A DNA stretch of 64,000 nt from Nocardia concava NBRC 100430 (GTDB lineage: Bacteria > Actinomycetota > Actinomycetes > Mycobacteriales > Mycobacteriaceae): positions 1 through 64,000 of the forward strand of contig NZ_BAFX01000047.1 in NCBI RefSeq assembly GCF_000308815.1, written 5' to 3'. Each line of letters starts with the position of its first letter. Position 1 is the first letter of the stretch. The notes under the pieces are model-generated. The model saw only the letters and a list, made by a program, of their open reading frames with translations. It ran no database searches and was not told where the DNA came from. The translations under genes were made by a program, and so were the position numbers. Positions 27,904 through 53,245 of the stretch are shown in pieces.

Positions 27904-29142
27904 TCAGGCTGTGGCGGAGGGGTTTTCGAGGACGATGGCGACGCCCTGGCCGGAGCCGATGCAGACGCCGATGGCGCCGTAGCGGGCATTGCGCTCGCGG
28001 AGTTCGGTGGCCAGGGTCAGGACGTAGCGGGCGCCAGTGGCGCCGAAGGGGTGTCCGATGGCGACCGCGCCGCCGTTGGGGGTGAGTTTTTCGTCGGGGA
28101 TGGTGAAACCGCCGAGCTGGTTGGGCAACTCGCGCAGCACGCCGAGGGCCTGGGCGCTGAAGGCCTCGTGCACTTCCCACACGTCGATCTGCTCGGGTGT
28201 CAGGCCCGCCCGCTGGATCGCCAGCGGCAGTGCCCAGGCCGGCGCCAGGCCCATGTACAGCGGGTCGATGCCGTAGACCGCGGAGGACACGATCCGGGCC
28301 AGCGGTTCGACGCCGAGCTGCGCGGCACGTTCGCCCGAGGCGAGGATCAGGGCGCTGGCCCCGTCGGTCAGCGGTGTGGAGTTCCCGGCGGTCATCTGCG
28401 TGGTGCCCGGCTGCGCGGGCAGGGCCGCGAGCTGCTCCGCGGTGGTGTCGCGGATGAACTCGTCGTGCTCGAACAGCCGCGCCGGGGTCTTCCTGGTGGC
28501 CGCGATCTCGACCGGCATGATCTCCTTGGCCAGTCGCCCGGAATCCCTGGCGGCCTTGGCATTCCGCTGCGTGCGCAGCGCGAACGCGTCGATCTCCTCG
28601 CGCGTCAGCCCGTAGCGGTCGGCCACGTTCTGCGCGGTCTCGATCATGCCGATGTAGGCATTGCGCGCCAGGAGGGCCGGGTTCGCGGGGCCGCCCGCTC
28701 CGGCCCACATGGTGTCGAGCAGGATGACGGGCCCGCGCGGCCCGAACGGCGAGTCCCCCTTCATGAATGCCCATCCCGACCGTGACATCGATTCGACGCC
28801 GCACGCGATTCCGACTCCCAGGTCTCCGGCCTTGATCGCATGCGCCACATTGACGGTGGCACTCAACGACGATCCGCAGAACCGGTTGATCGTCACCCCG
28901 GCCACGCTGTCCGGGAACCCGGCCGCCAGTGCGCCCCACCGCGCGACATCGCCCATGCCTTCGTGCGCGGGATTCACGCACCCCGCGACAATGTCCTCGA
29001 TTTGATCGAGCTCGACCCCGACCCGTTCGCACGCGCCTTTCATGGTCATCCCGAGCAGGTCATCGGTCCGCAAATGCGATAGCGAACCTCCGTACCGGGC
29101 AAACGGTGTCCGGACACCACCGAGCACAAACGCCTCAGTCAT
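27904..29142 (-). CDS. Thiolase (acetyl-CoA acetyltransferase / 3-ketoacyl-CoA thiolase)
   Basis: Start placed at ATG 29142 (MTEAFVLGG), giving 412 residues. All thiolase active-site motifs are present: the acyl-enzyme cysteine in NRFCGSS (about residue 90), the histidine in GHPFGATG and the second cysteine in VCIGSGQG. Thiolases cleave or form 3-ketoacyl-CoA. Fatty-acid or branched acid degradation is more likely than PHB synthesis in this context, though no other beta-oxidation gene is adjacent. It is monocistronic, with a hairpin terminator 22 bases beyond the stop. Confidence 0.92.
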   Translation of the reverse strand: MTEAFVLGGVRTPFARYGGSLSHLRTDDLLGMTMKGACERVGVELDQIEDIVAGCVNPAHEGMGDVARWGALAAGFPDSVAGVTINRFCGSSLSATVNVAHAIKAGDLGVGIACGVESMSRSGWAFMKGDSPFGPRGPVILLDTMWAGAGGPANPALLARNAYIGMIETAQNVADRYGLTREEIDAFALRTQRNAKAARDSGRLAKEIMPVEIAATRKTPARLFEHDEFIRDTTAEQLAALPAQPGTTQMTAGNSTPLTDGASALILASGERAAQLGVEPLARIVSSAVYGIDPLYMGLAPAWALPLAIQRAGLTPEQIDVWEVHEAFSAQALGVLRELPNQLGGFTIPDEKLTPNGGAVAIGHPFGATGARYVLTLATELRERNARYGAIGVCIGSGQGVAIVLENPSATA

Positions 29143-29359: not shown

Positions 29360-31204
29360 GTGAGAAGACTCTCCATTCTGGTGCTCGCAGCCCTGCTGCT
29401 TCCGATCACCGTGGCACCCGCGGAAGCGGATCCGCCGGAGCGCACCGAGCGGGTCGTGCAGACGGGCGATGGTCTGATCGTCAGCGAGGTGACCAGGTAC
29501 GCGCCGCTGCCGCCGAGCGCGGCCCGGCATGCCCCGGCTTGCGACTACCTCACCTACCTGCGGTATCGACTGGCGGACGGACCGGAGGATCCACAGCAGG
29601 CCGATGCCGTGATCATCGGTCAGCCCGCGGCGCTGATGGCCGGATACAGCCTGGACGGATTGGCCCGCAACCTGGAGCACCAATTGCGGGATACCGGCGA
29701 GAAAGCCGAGTTCTGGGCCGTTCATCCGCGCAATATCTGCATGTTCGATCGGACCGGGCTGCAGGCCGCCAATGACGCGCGGGATTACCACGTCGCGTGG
29801 GATTACTACTTCGAGGGCAAGGAGATCGACGGCAAGAGGTTCGGCGGATTCAAGGCCGACTGGGATATGCCCGAGGTCTCCGATATGGCGCTCGCGCAGA
29901 CCGTTCGGGACCAGTACACGATCATGAGCCGGGATCTGCCGGATCCCGTTTTCCGCCAGGACCGCACGTTCTGCCTGGGCACCTCGGACGGCGGGCTGTG
30001 GGAGGCCGCGTTCGCCGCTTGGGATTTCAACGGTGATCCCGGGTACCGGCAGTGCCGGGCGCTGATCACTCCCGAGGCCGTCCCGGCCGTCGATCCGGCT
30101 GGGCTGCAACGTATTCCGGTGGCTGGCGACATTTTCGGCGCGGTCGCCTCCGTGGTCTACAGCATCTATCTGGCGTTGTTCCATCTCGGCGTGAATCTGC
30201 CCGGCGGCGATCGGCTGGCGCTGTTCCCGACGACCCCGACGCTGGGGTTCATGTTCAGCCCGCGCTGGTGGACGCTCGTTTCGATTGCCGGAATCGCGGC
30301 CACCTACCAGCCGGATGACGAAACCGATCTCAACAGGCTGGCCATGCGGGACATATTCCTGAACATCAGTCTGCGGGTGAATTTCCCCAACAACTGGGCC
30401 GATATTCTGTTGGGCACCAATGGAATCGACACCTTCCGGTTCACCAACCGGGCCTTCCTCGGTGAGTTGGTGGGCAATACCGCCGTGAACATCCCCTACC
30501 CGCCGTACAGCGTCGGGGTGCTCGACGGCGGGCCGGTGGTTCTCAAAGAAGCGCCCTTGCCGGGCAATATTCTGCCGAATATCCCTATTCTCGGTAAATA
30601 CCTGGCGACCATCACCGGCACCACCAATCGTGTCGGCCCAACCGATCATTCCGTGCTGTACACCTGGCGCAGGTTCGATCAATTGGATGGGTTGCCGTAT
30701 GCCGATCCGTCCAAGCATTTCGTGGACATCGATTACTTCGCCCGGCAGGTCGGCAGCCCGCTCGGCTGGGCGAATCCGTACATGGCGCTGAAATGGACGG
30801 TGGCGGACCAGATCATGATCTGGTTCGGGGCGCGGAACCAGGATCTGTCGGGCGTTCGGCATGTCGACGAGGCCAATGCGCTGCCGTCGCTGACGATCTG
30901 GTCGAAGGACAGCCTCGAAGGGGCGCTGGTTTCGCCGTTGTTCCCCAACAACACCGAATTCGTCGAGGGGCCGGTGCATTACGACATCGGCAGTGCCGCA
31001 CCGGTGCAGAACAATGGCGGGCCCGATCCGTACAGCTCCCGGATCACGAGCTTCATCACGGATCTGGTGAACACGCCGCCCGGACAAGCGCAGGCGACGG
31101 GTACGCCGCCGGCCTTCGGCAGCTCGAATCCGCCGAATCTGTTGCCGCTCGGCGTCACCGGCAGCGCCGATGACGGGCGCGGCACAGGTTCGGGCGGGCA
31201 CTGA
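29360..31204 (+). CDS. Exported alpha/beta-hydrolase-like protein, paralogue 1 (GTSDGG class)
   Basis: GTG 29360 follows GGAGG by 5 bases. The 614-residue precursor has a signal peptide (ILVLAALLLPITVAPAEA) and no lipobox. Family blocks in order: DGLIVSEVTRYAPLP, CDYLTYLRYRLADGP, a conserved Asp-x-Thr-Gly (FDRTGL), YYFEGKEIDG, the nucleophile elbow GTSDGG with Ser209, WDFNGDPGY, and a C-terminal H540-Y-D542. Cys residues flank the elbow (FCLGTSDGG and YRQCRA), possibly forming a disulfide. A Gly/Pro/Asn-rich tail of about 60 residues is extra compared with its paralogues. It is the first gene of a three-gene operon. I do not recognise a named family. Confidence 0.8.
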   Translation: MRRLSILVLAALLLPITVAPAEADPPERTERVVQTGDGLIVSEVTRYAPLPPSAARHAPACDYLTYLRYRLADGPEDPQQADAVIIGQPAALMAGYSLDGLARNLEHQLRDTGEKAEFWAVHPRNICMFDRTGLQAANDARDYHVAWDYYFEGKEIDGKRFGGFKADWDMPEVSDMALAQTVRDQYTIMSRDLPDPVFRQDRTFCLGTSDGGLWEAAFAAWDFNGDPGYRQCRALITPEAVPAVDPAGLQRIPVAGDIFGAVASVVYSIYLALFHLGVNLPGGDRLALFPTTPTLGFMFSPRWWTLVSIAGIAATYQPDDETDLNRLAMRDIFLNISLRVNFPNNWADILLGTNGIDTFRFTNRAFLGELVGNTAVNIPYPPYSVGVLDGGPVVLKEAPLPGNILPNIPILGKYLATITGTTNRVGPTDHSVLYTWRRFDQLDGLPYADPSKHFVDIDYFARQVGSPLGWANPYMALKWTVADQIMIWFGARNQDLSGVRHVDEANALPSLTIWSKDSLEGALVSPLFPNNTEFVEGPVHYDIGSAAPVQNNGGPDPYSSRITSFITDLVNTPPGQAQATGTPPAFGSSNPPNLLPLGVTGSADDGRGTGSGGH

Positions 31205-31221
31205 GAGGCCAGGGGGTTCGG

Positions 31222-32961
31222 ATGCGAGCGACCATCGCGATCGCGCTTTTCGCGGCGACCATGACGACCACCGCGCTGTGCACGGCCGCGGCACACGCGG
31301 AGCCGGAGCGTCGGGAGACGGTCCTGGATCGGCGCGGTGACCTCATCGTCAGTGAAGTCACCTGGGCCGCACCGCTTCCGGCCTCGGCCGGACCGCATCC
31401 CGCACGCTGCGACACCCTGTCGTATCTGCGCCTGCGCATGGCCGACGGTCCCGACGACCCGGCCGACGCCGATGTCATCTACTCCGGCCAGCCCGGATTC
31501 ATCGGCGGGCCAAGGTCTTTGGGGCCGATCGCGGAGAACACCCTGCATGCCCTGGCCCGGACCGGCAAGCACGGGGAGTTCTGGGCGATGCAGCGGCGGC
31601 CGAGCTGCCTCGACGATCGGACCGGGATGGTCGCCGCCGTCGAACAGCACGACTATCGGGTCGCCATGGACTACTACTTCCACGGCGGCACCGTGGACGG
31701 GCGCACCTACGGTGGCGTCGTCCCGGTCGGTCAGCAGGCGTTCCTGAAGGACCTGGGCGTCAGATCCATCGTCGAGGACTGGCAGTACATCAACTCGCGG
31801 GAGATCCCGGATCCCGCTGTGCGCAAACAGAAGATCTATCTGGGCGGTCATTCCCTGGGCGGTCCGCTCACCGCCTACTTCGCCGCCTGGGATTTCGCCG
31901 GGCACGCCGGATACGACGAGGTCGCGGGCCTGTGGGTGCTGGACGCGCCGATGCAGCTCGACCCCGCGGACCTGGGGCGGGTGCCCGCGCTGAAGTGGGT
32001 CGTCGATCACCTGACCGGGCTGACGTATCAGGCCGCCACGGATCTACTGGGCTCCGGTCTGTTGCCGTATGCGGTGAATCTCGGCTTGGTCGATCCCGCG
32101 CTCACCGGTATCGCGCAGGCGCTGCTCGGGCTGAGCGGGATCGAGACCAATACGCTGTTCCAGCTGGTGAGCATCGCGGGCATCGCCACCCGGTTCGAGC
32201 CGACCGCGGAGAGCGAACTGCCGCGCAACCTGCCGCGGGCACCGGCCTGGGATATCGGGTTGTCCGCCTTGTATTCCCGGGATCTGTTCCAGCCCGTCCG
32301 TCCCGACTTCCGCGACTGGCGGCTGACCAACCAGGCCATGCTCGCCTCGCTGATCGACAGCAATACCAATCCCACGCCGTTCTCGGCGGGGCTCGGAAGT
32401 TACGACGGACCGGTCGTGGAGCGGAACATGCCGGTGCCGCTGTCCTGGTTCACCGATCTGCCGATGGTCGGCCCGCAGCTCAGGACGATCGTGCGACCCC
32501 AGGTGGTGCCCGCGGATCCGGCCGGGCGGCTCAACGGCTGGCGCAACTACGACACCCTCGCCGACGAACCGGCGGCCCCGGATGCGGGCGGACAGCCGTT
32601 CGCGACGCCGCAGGAAAAGGTCTGCGACATGGAGCAATTCGCCTACTACTTCGGTGGCGGCGAGCTCGCGGTGGGTTCGCCGTACGACACGGTCCGCACG
32701 GCGATGGACATCGTGTACGGCGTGCTCGGCGCCAAGTCCGGTGATCTCGCGGCGCTGCGGCATCCCGACTATCTGTCCCGCGTGCCGTACGTCCGGCTGG
32801 CCAGCGGACTGTGGCAGCTGGCCTCGATCTTCGGTATCGACGCCGAACCGACCACCTATCTCACCAACCTGCGGCATCTCGACTTCCCGTTCAGCGGCGC
32901 GCCGTCGAACGACGGGAGTCCCACCGCCGCCGATGCGCTGGTCGAACTGACCCGTCGCTGA
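31222..32961 (+). CDS. Exported alpha/beta-hydrolase-like protein, paralogue 2 (GGHSLGG class)
   Basis: ATG 31222 has an AGGGGG site and starts 17 bases after paralogue 1 ends. The 579-residue precursor has a signal peptide ending near AAAHAEPE. The same block order is present: DLIVSEVTWAAPLP, CDTLSYLRLRMADGP, LDDRTGM, YYFHGGTVDG, then a lipase-type elbow GGHSLGG with Ser211, WDFAGHAGY and the C-terminal H552-L-D. The cysteines that flank the elbow in paralogue 1 are absent. ESEL replaces the ETDL block of paralogue 1. It is most like the fourth copy at 51.5 kb. Secreted esterase or lipase activity is inference. Confidence 0.82.
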   Translation: MRATIAIALFAATMTTTALCTAAAHAEPERRETVLDRRGDLIVSEVTWAAPLPASAGPHPARCDTLSYLRLRMADGPDDPADADVIYSGQPGFIGGPRSLGPIAENTLHALARTGKHGEFWAMQRRPSCLDDRTGMVAAVEQHDYRVAMDYYFHGGTVDGRTYGGVVPVGQQAFLKDLGVRSIVEDWQYINSREIPDPAVRKQKIYLGGHSLGGPLTAYFAAWDFAGHAGYDEVAGLWVLDAPMQLDPADLGRVPALKWVVDHLTGLTYQAATDLLGSGLLPYAVNLGLVDPALTGIAQALLGLSGIETNTLFQLVSIAGIATRFEPTAESELPRNLPRAPAWDIGLSALYSRDLFQPVRPDFRDWRLTNQAMLASLIDSNTNPTPFSAGLGSYDGPVVERNMPVPLSWFTDLPMVGPQLRTIVRPQVVPADPAGRLNGWRNYDTLADEPAAPDAGGQPFATPQEKVCDMEQFAYYFGGGELAVGSPYDTVRTAMDIVYGVLGAKSGDLAALRHPDYLSRVPYVRLASGLWQLASIFGIDAEPTTYLTNLRHLDFPFSGAPSNDGSPTAADALVELTRR

Positions 32962-32977
32962 CTACCGGGAAGGAACA

Positions 32978-34675
32978 ATGGTCACGCGAAAGAGGTTCGC
33001 GCGCTGGGTGATACCGGCTCTGTGTGCGGCGCTGGTACCGATTCACGCCTTGGCCGCACCGGTGCCCGACGAGGTGCGCACCGAGACGATCGTGGAGGCG
33101 GACGGGGATATCACCGTCAGCCATGTACGGCTGTTCGATCCGCTGCCCGCCGGTGCTCTGCCGCATCCGGCCGCCTGTGATTGGGTCGAATACCTGCGCT
33201 ACCGGCCCGCTTCCGGCCCGGCCGATCCGCAGCAGGCGGACGCGGTGGTGCTGTCCCAGGTCGGTGCTTGGCTGGGGGCGACCTCGATGGGCCTGTTGGC
33301 ACGCAACACGATTCACGCACTCGGCGCACGGGGCAAGCGGATCGAATGGTGGTCGCAGCCGCGCCGCACCACCTGTCTGTTCGACGACACCGGCCTGCAC
33401 GCGGCCGCCGATGCGCACGATGGCCGGGTCGCCTTCGATTACTACTACGGGGACAAGGCCGTCGAAGGACACCGCTTCGCCGGATTCCATTCGAATGCCG
33501 AGCTGGGCTGGCTCGCCGACATCGGCCTCGCCCGCTACGTCGAGGACATGCACACCGTGCTCACCCGCGAGCTGCCCGACCCGGATATCCGGCGCGCCAA
33601 AGCATTCTGCGGCGGCACCTCCGACGGCGGCCTGGTCGCAGGGGCCTTCGCAGCATGGGATTTCGGCGGTGGCGAAGAGAACGCCGGATACAACCAGTGT
33701 GCGGCGTTCCTGGGCATAGATTCACTGATCTCCACCGACCCGCTTGCCTTGCAGTCGATTCCGTTGCTGCGCGAGACCGCTGGATTGGGCAGTGGCCTGT
33801 CGTATCAGGCTCAGGTCGCGGCCTTGCACGCCGGGATTCTTCCGGTGAGTTTCACCGGAATCCCTTATGTGGAACCGCGTTTCTACACCCTGCTCGCCGC
33901 ACTGGGAGCCGCCGCCCACTACGCCCCGGACGAGGAAACCGACCTGCACCGCCGCCTGCCCGCGGACTGGATCGACGAGATCTCCACCCGCCTCGCCTTC
34001 GCGGGAACCTACGCCGACCTTTTCGGTGGAGGTAATACGTTGCGCGACTTCCGCTTCACCAACACCGCCCTGCTCGGCATGCTGCTGGGCGACCACACCC
34101 TCAACGTCGGCCCCATGCAGTTCGGCATCGGCGCTCTCGACGGCGGCCCGGTGACCGCGAAGACCGTACCCTGGCCCGACAACCCGGCCTCACCGCTGAG
34201 CGCCGTCACCGGCCGCGGCCCGCGCATGATCCCCACCGACAAAACCGCCCTCTACACCTGGCGCGACTACGACCAACTGGACGGAATCGACTACGCCCCA
34301 CCCGGATCCGAGGTCGTCAGCATCCACGACCTGTCCACCGCCCTCTCCACCGCCCCCGGCGAATCCCTAGGCTTCCTCGACCCCTACTTCTCCCCCCGCT
34401 TCCTCATAGACATCCAATCCGCCTTCACCGGAACCCGAACCGCCGACCTCGCCCCCATCCGCTTCAACGACCGCATCCGCCAACGCCCCGTCCTCACCAC
34501 CGTCGGCACCAAATCCTGGATCGCCGTAGCCAAACCCCTCTTCCCCGCCGACACCATCTACCTCGACAACTACACCCACACCGACGTCAACATCGCAGCC
34601 ACCCACCAGCCCGCCGACCACCCCGAACAAGTCAGCACCACCATCGCCGACTTCATCCTCCGCAACCTCACCTGA
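32978..34675 (+). CDS. Exported alpha/beta-hydrolase-like protein, paralogue 3 (GTSDGG class)
   Basis: ATG 32978 follows GGAAGGAA and lies 16 bases after paralogue 2. The 565-residue precursor has a signal peptide ending near HALAAPVPD. The blocks match paralogue 1: CDWVEYLRYRPASGP, FDDTGL, YYYGDKAVEG, elbow GTSDGG with Ser215, flanking cysteines FCGG and YNQC, PDEETDL, and the C-terminal H534-T-D. The last 600 bases differ sharply in codon use: third positions become almost all C or A, and rare codons such as CTA and ATA appear (34360-34420). The reading frame and family similarity are unbroken across this change. Confidence 0.82.
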   Translation: MVTRKRFARWVIPALCAALVPIHALAAPVPDEVRTETIVEADGDITVSHVRLFDPLPAGALPHPAACDWVEYLRYRPASGPADPQQADAVVLSQVGAWLGATSMGLLARNTIHALGARGKRIEWWSQPRRTTCLFDDTGLHAAADAHDGRVAFDYYYGDKAVEGHRFAGFHSNAELGWLADIGLARYVEDMHTVLTRELPDPDIRRAKAFCGGTSDGGLVAGAFAAWDFGGGEENAGYNQCAAFLGIDSLISTDPLALQSIPLLRETAGLGSGLSYQAQVAALHAGILPVSFTGIPYVEPRFYTLLAALGAAAHYAPDEETDLHRRLPADWIDEISTRLAFAGTYADLFGGGNTLRDFRFTNTALLGMLLGDHTLNVGPMQFGIGALDGGPVTAKTVPWPDNPASPLSAVTGRGPRMIPTDKTALYTWRDYDQLDGIDYAPPGSEVVSIHDLSTALSTAPGESLGFLDPYFSPRFLIDIQSAFTGTRTADLAPIRFNDRIRQRPVLTTVGTKSWIAVAKPLFPADTIYLDNYTHTDVNIAATHQPADHPEQVSTTIADFILRNLT

Positions 34676-45249: not shown

Positions 45250-45926
45250 TCAGCAACTATTCTCGGCACGGGCCATCTCCCGATGGAAGTTGGCCGCGTC
45301 GGGCCCGGTGCGGGTGAACCAGTACAGGCTCGCGGTGAGCAGGACGTTGTCGCGACAGATCGGGGTCGCGGGATTGGCCCACTCGACGAATTTCTCCGCG
45401 ATCCAGGCCAGTTGCAGGATCGGGGAGTCGGCCAGGCCCGCCGACAAGGCGTTGGGCTGTGTCGAGTGCAGCACGCGGTAGCCCTTCCGCTGTGCCCAAT
45501 CACGTTGCGCGGCTTCGAGTTGCTCGAGCTCATCGGCATCGAGGCCGTTCGGCACGGGAAGGTCTTCGCCGACCATGCCGAGCTGGAGACGGTCGCCGTG
45601 GGTGTGTGCGCCGATGACGCGAAGCGGGCTCGAGAACACGAACCCGGGCAGCGACGGGATCACCAGATGGAACGCATCCGCCGGGTCGCCACCGTGAGCG
45701 CGGGGATCGCTCAACGGCCTACTCGCAGCGAGGAATTCGACGAACGAGGTCGGGTAGCTGTGGTTGAGCAACAGCGGGGTGGCGTCGGGCTCGGGTGAGC
45801 GCAGGTGCAGGAAATGAATGGTCTGCCCGTCGATCTCGGTCACGAAGTGTGGCAGCTCGTTCAGCTCGGCTTCGTGTGCGCGCCAATCGAACCCGTCCGC
45901 CCAATAGGGGCGTGGCGCAGGTAGTC
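45250..45926 (-). pseudogene. Epoxide hydrolase remnant A (frameshift and core deletion)
   Basis: The frame from 45843 downward reads as an EHN-type epoxide hydrolase: [20 protein letters not shown], then [10 protein letters not shown]. It then jumps straight to the lid and cap region ([60 protein letters not shown]). The stretch with the nucleophile aspartate (GGDWG in the family) is missing, as is the final histidine domain. The N-terminal part is in another frame: DYLRHA at 45926-45909 joins PYWADGFDW only after a one-base shift in the G run 45907-45910. Clearly non-functional. Remnant B lies at 49.5 kb. Confidence 0.85.
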
Positions 45927-50129: not shown

Positions 50130-51401
50130 TCAGGGCCGGGATCCCGGGGCGGTGTTGCGGAAGATATGGATGGCGATGTTGGTGGGGGAGCCGGAGGGGA
50201 GCCAGGTGGGGACGGCCAGGTCGGGGTAGCCGTCGCCGGTGAGGTCGGTGGCGAGGAATTCCTGGGGCAGGGTCAGCGGCAGGTTGAGCAGGGGGACCGG
50301 GTCTCCGATCGGAACTTCGCCCGCCGCAACGAAATTGCGGTTGCCCTCGTTGTGGTACAGGAGTACGCGGCTGGTGACTGTTTCCACGATGGCGAGGTCG
50401 GGTCGGCCGTCGTTGTCGAAGTCCGCGACCTGGACGGCGGGGTTGCCGTCGATCAGGCCGGGGCCGTGGATCTTGGTGGTCGCGGCGGAGAAGGCGCCGT
50501 CGCCGGTGCCGTAGAGGATGGTGACGTCATTGCTGTTGGCGTCGCCCACGATGATGTCCGGACGACCGTTGCCGTCCAGGTCGGTGATCTGGATCTGTTC
50601 CGGTGACCAGCCGACGCGGTAGGCATCGGCGAAGCGGAAGGTGGCGTCGCCGTTGTTGAGGAACACTCTGAGGTAGTCACCCTGGATCGGGCCGAGCGGA
50701 TGCGCCTCGCCCACCACCAGATCGGGGAAGCCGTCGTGGTTGAGATCCGCCACGGCCATCGACATCGCGATACCGAAGCCGACCGCGTAAAGCGGTGCTC
50801 CGGCGGGTGCGAACGCGCCGTCCCCGGTGCCGCGGAAGATGGTGACCGTGCCGGGCAAGTTGCCGTGGACGGCGAAGTCGGCGCGGCCGTCGCAGTCGAA
50901 ATCGGCGACCGAGATCTTCATCGGCGGATACCCGTTGATGGTGAAATTGCTTGGTGGCGTGAAGGTTCCGTCCGGTCGGCTCAATATTACGCTGACCTGA
51001 TCGGTGGCCCAGCTGCCGGTGAGGATATCGGGTATCCCATCGCCGTTGACGTCGGCGGCGGTCACCGTGCAGGCGTCGCGTCCGATGTCGATCAGCGTGG
51101 GCGGCCCGAAGGTGCCGTCCCCGTTGCCGTGTGCGATCAACGGGCCGGACCCGAGGCAGTTGGCGAGCACCAGATCTCGGCGTCCGGTTCCCGAGAAGTC
51201 CGCAGCGGCAACGGGATTGCCGCCGTACACCGAGTCCGGCGCGAAGAGCCCACCCGGGACGCGGCCTTGTGGCAGGAAGGATATGGCCGGTTGCTCCGCG
51301 GCCGTGGGGGTGAGGGAGGCGGAGACGGTAAGGGCGGTGATGAACACCGCCAGCGCGGCGACGCGTCGGTACGAGTCTGGATTGGACGACACAGACCCCA
51401 T
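50130..51401 (-). CDS. Exported seven-bladed FG-GAP/VCBS propeller protein
   Basis: A 423-residue precursor with a signal peptide (RRVAALAVFITALTVSASL). Seven repeats each carry a calcium-loop motif of the D-x-x-G-D-G-x-x-D type: ADFSGTGRRDL, ADVNGDGIPDI, ADFDCDGRADF, ADLNHDGFPDL, TDLDGNGRPDI, ADFDNDGRPDL and TDLTGDGYPDL. Seven such units are expected to close into an integrin-like beta-propeller outside the cell. No enzyme domain is attached. Such proteins bind ligands or partner proteins. It is divergent from the fourth exported hydrolase, with a shared 116-base promoter region. Confidence 0.9.
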   Translation of the reverse strand: MGSVSSNPDSYRRVAALAVFITALTVSASLTPTAAEQPAISFLPQGRVPGGLFAPDSVYGGNPVAAADFSGTGRRDLVLANCLGSGPLIAHGNGDGTFGPPTLIDIGRDACTVTAADVNGDGIPDILTGSWATDQVSVILSRPDGTFTPPSNFTINGYPPMKISVADFDCDGRADFAVHGNLPGTVTIFRGTGDGAFAPAGAPLYAVGFGIAMSMAVADLNHDGFPDLVVGEAHPLGPIQGDYLRVFLNNGDATFRFADAYRVGWSPEQIQITDLDGNGRPDIIVGDANSNDVTILYGTGDGAFSAATTKIHGPGLIDGNPAVQVADFDNDGRPDLAIVETVTSRVLLYHNEGNRNFVAAGEVPIGDPVPLLNLPLTLPQEFLATDLTGDGYPDLAVPTWLPSGSPTNIAIHIFRNTAPGSRP

Positions 51402-51517
51402 ACTTTGCGGTGGGGATCGAGTGGCGGCCGCCGCATCCGTTCAGATGTCGAGCACGGTCAATGGTGTGGCGCACACCGTCAATCACGAACCTGGACAGCG
51501 CGAATAGCGTTCCGCGC

Positions 51518-53245
51518 ATGCGGCAGGGCGGGTTGAACGGGGCACGCTACGCGATCGCGGTGGTGCTCATGGCGATCGGCGTGAGCTGGTACCCCGTGCC
51601 GGTGGCGCACGCGGAGCAGCCGGGTCGTAGCGAGACACCGATAGAAACCCGCGGCGACATCCTGGTCAGCCAGGTCACCTGGGACGCGCCGCTGCCCGCG
51701 GGCTCGGCCCCGCACGCGCCCGAGTGCGACCGATTGTCGTTCCTGCGCTACCGGTTCGCCGACGGGCCCGCGGATCCGAACGAGGCCGATGCGGTGATCA
51801 GCGTGCAGGCGGGCAATATCGGCGGTCCCAGTTCGCTGGGGACACTGGCGGTTTCGACGCTGCATCAGCTGCGGGCGACCGGAAAGACCGCCGAGTACTG
51901 GGCGATGGCGCGCCGTCCCGTCTGTTTGGAGGACCGCGCCGGAATGATCGCGGCGGTGCGCGACCGGGACTATCGCACCGCGCTGAACTATTACTTCCGG
52001 GGCGCTGCGGTCGATGGCCACACCTGGCCGGGCTGGGCCAGCGACACCGAGCAGCGCTGGCTCGCCGACTACGGGCTGCGGCAGACGATGGCGGACTGGC
52101 ATCTGATCAATGCGCTCGAACTCCCCGATCCGGTTGTGCGCAAGGCGAAGATGTTCATCGGCGGGCACTCGCTGGGCGGCCCGCTGTCCTCGTTCTACGC
52201 GCAGTTCGACTTCCCCGACGGACCCGGCTTCACACAGGTCGCGGGAGTCATCGGCATCGACGGCCCGATCCGGTCGGATCCGTTCCTGCTGCGGCAGCTT
52301 GCCTTGCAGCCAGTGGCCGACGTGTACGGCATGATCGGACTGCCACTGTCCACCGCCCTGCTCGGCACCGGAATCCTGCCGCAGGCAACCCAACTCGGCT
52401 TCGCCAATACCGGCGACCTGTTCAACCTGATCAATATCGCCGGAATCGCGGCACGGTTCATGCCCGACGTCGAAAGTGAGATCCCGCAGTCGATTCCGCA
52501 CACCCCGTTCTGGGATATCGTGCTCGGCACCTTGTTTCCCGGCGCACCGGATTTCCGGCAGTGGCGACTGACCAATGCCGCGGTACTGGGCGCGTTGATC
52601 GGAAAGAACTCGATGCCCTCGGTCGGATTGCAGTCCGGCTTCGGCGTTTTCGAGGGGCCGGTGGTCGAGAAGCACGTCATCGTCCCGCCCGAACTGACCC
52701 AGCTGCCGGTCATCGGCGGCATGTTCAAGGTGGTCTCCGCCGAACGACTGATGCGCCCCGCCGACCCGACCGGGCGACTCACCGGATGGCTCGACTACGA
52801 CCAACTCGACCGGGCGCAGGACGGGGGTGCGCCGTTCACCACCCCGGCCGAACAGGTCGCGGCACTGGCCGACGTGGCCACCGATGTCGGCGCGGGCGCC
52901 CTCGGCTACACCACCGCCTTCGACTCCAACCGCCAGCTCGCCGATCTCGGCTTCGCCGAAACCGGCTACCGCGGAGGCGATCTCGCGCTCCTGCGCTACC
53001 CCGACTATCAAGCCCACACCCCGACAACGGTGATCATCGGCGACATCTGGCGGCCCTATCAAATGCTGGGCCCCAACCTCGGCCTGCCCTGGATCGAATT
53101 CGGCCAGCCGGCCTCGGCCCACTACGCCGAGCACTACAGCCACCTCGACATGCTCGCCGCCGCCGAACGGCAGAACAACGGCCGCCCCGAACTGGTCGGC
53201 ACCACCATCGCCACCTTCGTCGAAGGAGTGCTCGAACCGTCATAG
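51518..53245 (+). CDS. Exported alpha/beta-hydrolase-like protein, paralogue 4 (GGHSLGG class)
   Basis: ATG 51518 gives a 575-residue precursor with a signal peptide ending near VAHAEQPG. The block order is that of the 29-35 kb family: DILVSQVTWDAPLP, CDRLSFLRYRFADGP, LEDRAGM, YYFRGAAVDG, elbow GGHSLGG with Ser218, FDFPDGPGF, and the C-terminal H542-L-D followed by VGTTIATFVEGVL. It is closest to paralogue 2 in elbow, missing cysteines and the ESEI block. No clear ribosome site is seen. It is isolated from the other three by 17 kb and lies beside the FG-GAP protein gene. Confidence 0.82.
   Translation: MRQGGLNGARYAIAVVLMAIGVSWYPVPVAHAEQPGRSETPIETRGDILVSQVTWDAPLPAGSAPHAPECDRLSFLRYRFADGPADPNEADAVISVQAGNIGGPSSLGTLAVSTLHQLRATGKTAEYWAMARRPVCLEDRAGMIAAVRDRDYRTALNYYFRGAAVDGHTWPGWASDTEQRWLADYGLRQTMADWHLINALELPDPVVRKAKMFIGGHSLGGPLSSFYAQFDFPDGPGFTQVAGVIGIDGPIRSDPFLLRQLALQPVADVYGMIGLPLSTALLGTGILPQATQLGFANTGDLFNLINIAGIAARFMPDVESEIPQSIPHTPFWDIVLGTLFPGAPDFRQWRLTNAAVLGALIGKNSMPSVGLQSGFGVFEGPVVEKHVIVPPELTQLPVIGGMFKVVSAERLMRPADPTGRLTGWLDYDQLDRAQDGGAPFTTPAEQVAALADVATDVGAGALGYTTAFDSNRQLADLGFAETGYRGGDLALLRYPDYQAHTPTTVIIGDIWRPYQMLGPNLGLPWIEFGQPASAHYAEHYSHLDMLAAAERQNNGRPELVGTTIATFVEGVLEPS

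Follow-up and report, generated by a model that had tools for sequence, protein, structure and literature searches.

The window analysed here, 64,000 nucleotides of Nocardia concava NBRC 100430 (contig NZ_BAFX01000047.1, positions 1 to 64,000), harbors on its forward strand an operon of three genes encoding exported alpha/beta-hydrolase-like proteins. Copy 1 (29360..31204, 614 amino acids) contains the elbow C-LGTSDGG and a Glu in place of Asp at the presumed acid position. Copy 2 (31222..32961, 579 amino acids) contains the elbow GGHSLGG without the C211/C241 cysteine pair, and copy 3 (32978..34675, 565 amino acids) contains the elbow C-GGTSDGG. The intergenic gaps are 17 bases between copies 1 and 2 and 16 bases between copies 2 and 3, a GGAGG precedes the GTG start of copy 1 at 29360, and a Sec signal with an AxA site can be seen by eye at the N-terminus of each product. 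Copy 3 matches copy 1 with an E value of 2.1e-115 and 41% identity, a homology far above chance, and copy 2 with an E value of 1.2e-71 and 37% identity. An earlier note on this DNA had described three genes of these sizes with gaps of 16–17 bases, as well as a series of ordered blocks shared by their products; the open reading frame (ORF) coordinates agree, and all of the blocks are located in the three copies.

The three proteins belong to an unnamed actinobacterial family inside the well-known alpha/beta-hydrolase superfamily. None of 13 members scanned against Pfam reaches a family cut-off: the best score is 16.0 bits compared with a gathering score of 25.8 (Abhydrolase_1), and the gathering scores of Abhydrolase_1, Abhydrolase_5, and Hydrolase_4 are not attained, although weak alpha/beta hydrolase matches span the elbow region. 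The acid lipase (gastric/lysosomal) profiles of Pfam do not match these 13 members up to E 10, NCBIfam returns no family for the three copies up to E 10, and solved structures searched by sequence yield nothing significant. Consistent with the earlier note, whose author did not recognize the family as a named one, no match to a well-described enzyme family was found in Pfam or NCBIfam, and a literature search of titles and abstract beginnings returned no description of the family or of the Streptomyces cluster discussed below. Tannases and feruloyl esterases were considered as relatives and rejected. Their CS-D-HC motif places a Cys directly before the Ser and before the His; in the present family C211 lies four residues before S215, no Cys precedes H534, and there is no Pfam match. 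The family is newly defined, with no Pfam or NCBIfam model of its own, and here gains a fold, a likely active site, and a set of neighborhoods; its superfamily and probable chemistry are ordinary, and its function is inferred throughout.

Copies 2 and 3 are predicted to fold as alpha/beta hydrolases. The AlphaFold model of copy 3 has a mean predicted local distance difference test (pLDDT) score of 92.3 and a predicted template modeling (pTM) score of 0.90 (54-sequence alignment), and that of copy 2 scores 88.5 and 0.89, respectively (40-sequence alignment). The best PDB match of both models is 2RAU, a putative lipase from Sulfolobus solfataricus (NP_343859.1), with a Z score of 23.5 over 318 aligned residues at 3.6 Å for copy 3 and 21.9 over 311 residues at 4.3 Å for copy 2, which is 3.8 and 4.7 Z above the next row, respectively. 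The rows that follow, at Z 16–20, include monoglyceride, gastric, and lysosomal acid lipases, epoxide hydrolases, and esterases. The alpha/beta-hydrolase likeness proposed in the earlier note is therefore reproduced by both models. Each model also contains an insertion of approximately 250 residues between strands beta-6 and beta-7 (the strand numbering is our own), which we take to be a cap.

The 2RAU elbow and its GYGHLDVYTG stretch are collinear with the family elbow and GYNHLDVLTA, but the sequence E value is only 1.1, and 2RAU differs in its length of about 350 residues and its identity of 14–15%. A literature search found no tested substrate for 2RAU; an S. solfataricus esterase, SSO2517, is named in PMC5424146 but could not be tied to 2RAU. 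Gastric lipase (1K8Q) and lysosomal acid lipase (6V7N) likewise combine an alpha/beta hydrolase with a large cap and align at Z 18.8 (304 residues) and Z 19.3 (303 residues), respectively, but share only 10–12% identity with the family, whose 13 scanned members their Pfam models miss. A further difference concerns the catalytic acid, which follows beta-7 in gastric lipase and apparently follows beta-6 in the present family.

Active-site conservation was read from an alignment of 135–136 rows. Most of these derive from stretches retrieved by two peptide patterns, of which the C-GGHS elbow was one; the best 80 of 200 relatives among 246 such stretches make up the named loci referred to below. 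The alignment also used 15 of 34 full-length loci from profile searches of the family and class, which are pattern-free but comprise best matches only, capped at 30 loci per search; the remainder were mostly duplicates, and a few were left out. A fragment row without an elbow (L152_7041) was excluded from the conservation count. Ser215 of the elbow is kept in 134 of 135 rows, although its conservation and that of the cysteines are biased upward by the pattern-based choice of most rows, the elbow itself having served as a pattern. His534 is present in all 134 rows and is the only His above 90%, and Asp536 after it is equally invariant (134/134). Asp248 occurs in 134 of 135 rows, the single Glu being that of copy 1. 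In the copy 3 model, strand 209–214 directly precedes the elbow, Asp248 sits at the end of strand 243–247, and strand 527–529 precedes His534; no conserved acid directly follows strand 505–510. Conservation and order point to a putative catalytic triad of Ser215, His534, and, probably, Asp248.

Two cysteine pairs are common in the family, with C67 in 133 of 134 rows, C133 in 131 of 134, and C211 and C241 in 128 of 135 each. The earlier note had proposed two active-site classes, one with GTSDGG elbows and flanking cysteines and one with a GGHSLGG elbow lacking them. This division does not extend to the family. The GTSDGG elbow is found in only 2 of 135 rows, those of copies 1 and 3, and among 33 profile-search relatives from outside the genome (best matches, leaving out fragments L049, L050, and L053) 27 contain C-GGHS[LM]GG and six contain CTGISLGG. 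The elbow/cysteine contrast is no family rule, because most relatives examined combine GGHSLGG with cysteines, and in the aligned sequences the two usually co-occur. The clade of copy 2 is without the C211/C241 pair, and the C67/C133 pair is kept in four of its seven rows.

The genome (8.93 Mb, 205 contigs) contains seven paralogues: copies 1–3, a fourth in the window at 51410–53245, two on contig C112, and one on contig C74. Counting this genome, hydrolase matches, some of them short fragments, are found in 28 of 59 genomes of the genus, with up to eight matches per genome, in 40 of 251 genomes of the family, and in 9 of 296 genomes of the class. Named hosts include Nocardia, Rhodococcus, Rhodococcoides, Gordonia, Aldersonia, Streptomyces, Actinomadura, Actinoplanes, and Saccharopolyspora. 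A plasmid search with one C112 paralogue (L002) as the sole query returned no match.

A 91-row tree, from which 45 of 136 rows had been dropped by eye as near-duplicates or fragments, contains a broad core, a CTGISLGG clade, a CGGHSLGA clade, a clade of copies 1 and 3, and a clade without C211/C241, with long branches flagged. Copies 1 and 3 group with the C112 paralogue L002, a Nocardia colli member, and two copies from genome G028. The clade without C211/C241 holds copy 2, the 51410 paralogue, the other C112 paralogue (L005), and four G028 copies. A recent tandem triplication, which would place copies 1–3 in one clade, is rejected on a 31-row tree selected further from the 91 rows (approximately unbiased (AU) test, p 2.1e-10). 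A strict sister relationship of copies 1 and 3 is allowed on the same tree (p 0.41), and the best tree joins copy 3, on long branches, with a G028 copy that has Ala for the elbow Ser. Pairs from different clades recur side by side. CTGISLGG and CGGHSLGA members are neighbors in 8 of the 28 matching genomes of the genus (one copy is broken in G025), as well as in G073 and G117, and a copy-1/3-type member accompanies a copy-2-type member in this operon, on C112 (5.7 kb apart), and on G028 C19. The recurrence of such pairs makes it reasonable to suppose, with the earlier note, that distinct roles rather than simple redundancy are kept together, and the topology test supports old lineages maintained side by side over a recent triplication. 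Copies 1 and 3 on the one hand and copy 2 on the other stem from different old lineages and probably differ in substrate or acceptor.

We consider it likely that copies 1–3 are secreted serine hydrolases acting on long-chain lipid esters outside the membrane. Each copy would be exported by the Sec system, its signal cleaved, and would fold as an alpha/beta hydrolase with a cap, in which Ser215, His534, and probably Asp248 (Glu in copy 1) would form the triad. The cap could form a pocket able to accommodate a large, hydrophobic acyl ester, and with such a pocket the enzymes would likely hydrolyze long-chain lipid esters or transfer their acyl groups. The freed acids may then be taken up for beta-oxidation, for which the divergent thiolase gene next upstream of copy 1 is suggestive. 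Actinobacterial lipases, cutinases, and Ag85-type mycolyltransferases are likewise exported serine esterases of lipid-rich actinobacteria, and cutinase and Ag85-like genes neighbor the hydrolase in Streptomyces; however, these enzymes belong to other Pfam families, whose models do not match the 13 scanned members.

The upstream thiolase gene (acetyl-CoA C-acyltransferase, 27904..29142, reverse strand) has Pfam Thiolase_N/C domains and scores 386 bits with TIGR01930, for which the cut-off is 241. Four related Rhodococcus loci (L062, L063, L069, and L070) also have a thiolase, of 33% identity, about 3 kb from the hydrolase. Near the C74 paralogue are genes for an oleate hydratase family protein, a 3-hydroxyacyl-CoA dehydrogenase, a patatin, and a GDSL lipase. 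The two C112 paralogues are accompanied by mce-like and YrbE-like genes, an AMP-dependent ligase, an AraC regulator, and two GMC proteins, for both of which cholesterol oxidase is the top-scoring NCBIfam model (472 and 580 bits, cut-off 850); one C112 MCE protein that was scanned scores 93.9 bits against a cut-off of 140.5. Gene calls were made by a GC-frame heuristic, and the YrbE assignments, like some of those to mce, were made by eye. The thiolase, mce, cholesterol-oxidase-like, and oleate hydratase genes give a slight indication of action on lipids, so that the esterase/lipase-like role envisaged in the earlier note gains a little from some neighbors and nothing from most named loci outside Streptomyces.

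Several observations weigh against this proposal. None of 16 neighbors sought is found at 34 of the 45 named non-Streptomyces loci, and the neighbor counts are raw, uncorrected for background. No biochemically tested member of the family was found in the literature search. In a search of 149 other genomes of the genus (E up to 1e-100), no full-length match to copy 1 exceeded 40%, and the conservation of the operon is consequently unusable as evidence. The G028 C19 copy noted above (L146:6201-7781, elbow GGHADGA) adjoins intact paralogues, which implies that not every member need be a hydrolase. The window contains no exact KstR or KstR2 box, which is weak evidence because the expected counts are low (0.11 and 0.02), and one-mismatch KstR matches at C112 are near chance (1 compared with 1.5 expected, and 3 compared with 1.1 expected). 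Membership of a sterol regulon was rejected on these grounds.

In Streptomyces the hydrolase is found in 20 of 150 genomes and a particular cutinase in 17 (E up to 1e-30 in both cases), all 17 being among the 20 (Fisher p 1e-19, relatedness ignored). The two genes are 73–201 bases apart in 14 genomes, 1.1 and 5.4 kb apart in two, and unlinked in one. A search with the ketosynthase portion of a Pks13-like synthase gives matches in 27 of the 150 genomes (E up to 1e-150), 18 of which have a close form of it (at least 84% identity, the next being 67%). The hydrolase is carried by 16 of these 18, at a distance of 5 to 11 kb, and the other two are drafts of 630 contigs (79% complete) and 1010 contigs. 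Of the 35 named loci from Streptomyces, 30 have genes for the cutinase, the synthase, a mycolyltransferase-like esterase, and a PucR regulator, and 26 also have one for a fatty acyl-AMP ligase, a number limited by locus ends. Among the five misses, two are on contigs shorter than 10 kb, and L107, L133, and L134 form a separate clade. PucR-type regulators with HTH_30 also recur beside members elsewhere (L067, L154, and L155).

In genome G407 an AccD-like carboxyltransferase gene (L141:10809-12380) precedes the genes for the ligase (L141:12402-14300), the synthase (L141:14300-18286), and the esterase (L141:18311-19354). The cutinase gene (L142:930-1568) comes next and is convergent with that of the hydrolase in the stretch L142:930-3471 (G407:C1). 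The carboxyltransferase gene likewise precedes the ligase in G318 (L139/L140), the other of the two Streptomyces genomes in which it was examined. The synthase has domains of the ketosynthase, acyltransferase, phosphopantetheine (in two stretches), and thioesterase types. Pks13 is its best match both in the PDB, with 844 bits compared with 640 for the runner-up, and among NCBIfam models, where its 1189 bits stay under the cut-off of 2100. The ligase scores 537 bits with general fatty acyl-AMP ligase models and 489 with FadD32, whose cut-off is not reached, the carboxyltransferase scores 666 bits with its best model, whose cut-off is 999, and the cutinase match to Culp6 is trivial (25.7 bits compared with 570). 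The best PDB match of the esterase is the corynebacterial protein PS1 (E 4e-38), followed by Cmt1 and a generic esterase (E 4e-23 to 5e-23) and by Ag85C from E 1e-14. In gene content the cluster resembles the mycobacterial mycolate locus fbp-culp6-fadD32-pks13-accD4. Streptomyces are not known to make mycolic acids. The cluster is the most surprising by-product of this analysis and raises the question of whether such strains make a mycolate-like lipid.

These neighborhoods lend some weight to a different role, in which the hydrolase would act on the mycolate-type (alpha-branched) esters of its own envelope, as a remodeling hydrolase or acyltransferase like Ag85 or cutinase-like proteins, rather than on food lipids. 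The shared gene set, the AccD-like gene before the ligase, the link to the close synthase, and the PS1 match of the esterase all favor it. We nevertheless regard it as unlikely. The paralogues of the window do not adjoin mycolate genes, and outside Streptomyces the four-gene set occurs at one of the 45 named loci (L089, an actinobacterium). Presence in 28 of 59 genomes is patchy for the genus and hardly suits a core envelope function, and 4 of the 20 hydrolase-bearing Streptomyces (G585, G657, G674, and G693) are without the close synthase. The scores for Pks13, FadD32, and the carboxyltransferase stay below their NCBIfam cut-offs, and the Culp6 match has no force. A bolder version, in which the whole family is devoted to mycolate-type esters, often as divergent paralogue pairs, and marks a cryptic mycolate-condensation pathway in some Streptomyces, is a little less probable still.

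Steryl-ester hydrolases feeding Mce-dependent sterol uptake would account for the position of the two C112 paralogues among cholesterol-oxidase-like genes beside an mce-like operon, for a tandem pair that adjoins mce-like genes in G024, and for the fold likeness to lysosomal acid lipase. Such neighbors are, however, confined to C112 and G024 among 105 other loci searched, the cholesterol oxidase and MCE scores fall below their cut-offs, and no KstR box was found, so that we judge this reading very doubtful. It is highly improbable that part of the set, perhaps copies 1 and 3, is altered in catalysis and forms complexes with an active paralogue, an arrangement suggested by the recurring different-clade pairs, the Glu of copy 1, and the Ala-for-Ser relative of copy 3, since copies 1 and 3 both retain Ser and His. 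Secreted hydrolysis of long-chain lipid esters remains our preferred reading of the operon.

Scans for promoters and terminators gave no signal exceeding chance. A horizontally acquired island was rejected, save one from a donor of like composition, as the G+C content of the operon resembles that of its surroundings. The match of a short ORF at 45253–45843 is confined to the final 36 positions of the epoxide hydrolase N-terminal domain, and the ORF is perhaps a gene remnant. On C112, near L002, two adjacent secreted-looking proteins of 580–608 residues (L136:3387-7201) represent another family with one weak Peptidase_S15 match; they have no detectable kinship with the hydrolases and were rejected as relatives, and homologs of theirs lie near hydrolase members in N. 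colli and G028. The fourth paralogue of the window (51410..53245 as ORF limits, forward strand), a member of the copy 2 clade, has a Met near 51518 before a signal-like stretch. Divergent from it is a gene for an FG-GAP repeat protein identified by Pfam (50130..51401, reverse strand). A 28% match to this protein adjoins the N. colli member (L056:5594-7057), and an ORF beside the C112 paralogue L002 (L136:7041-8465) is linked to the FG-GAP group only indirectly.

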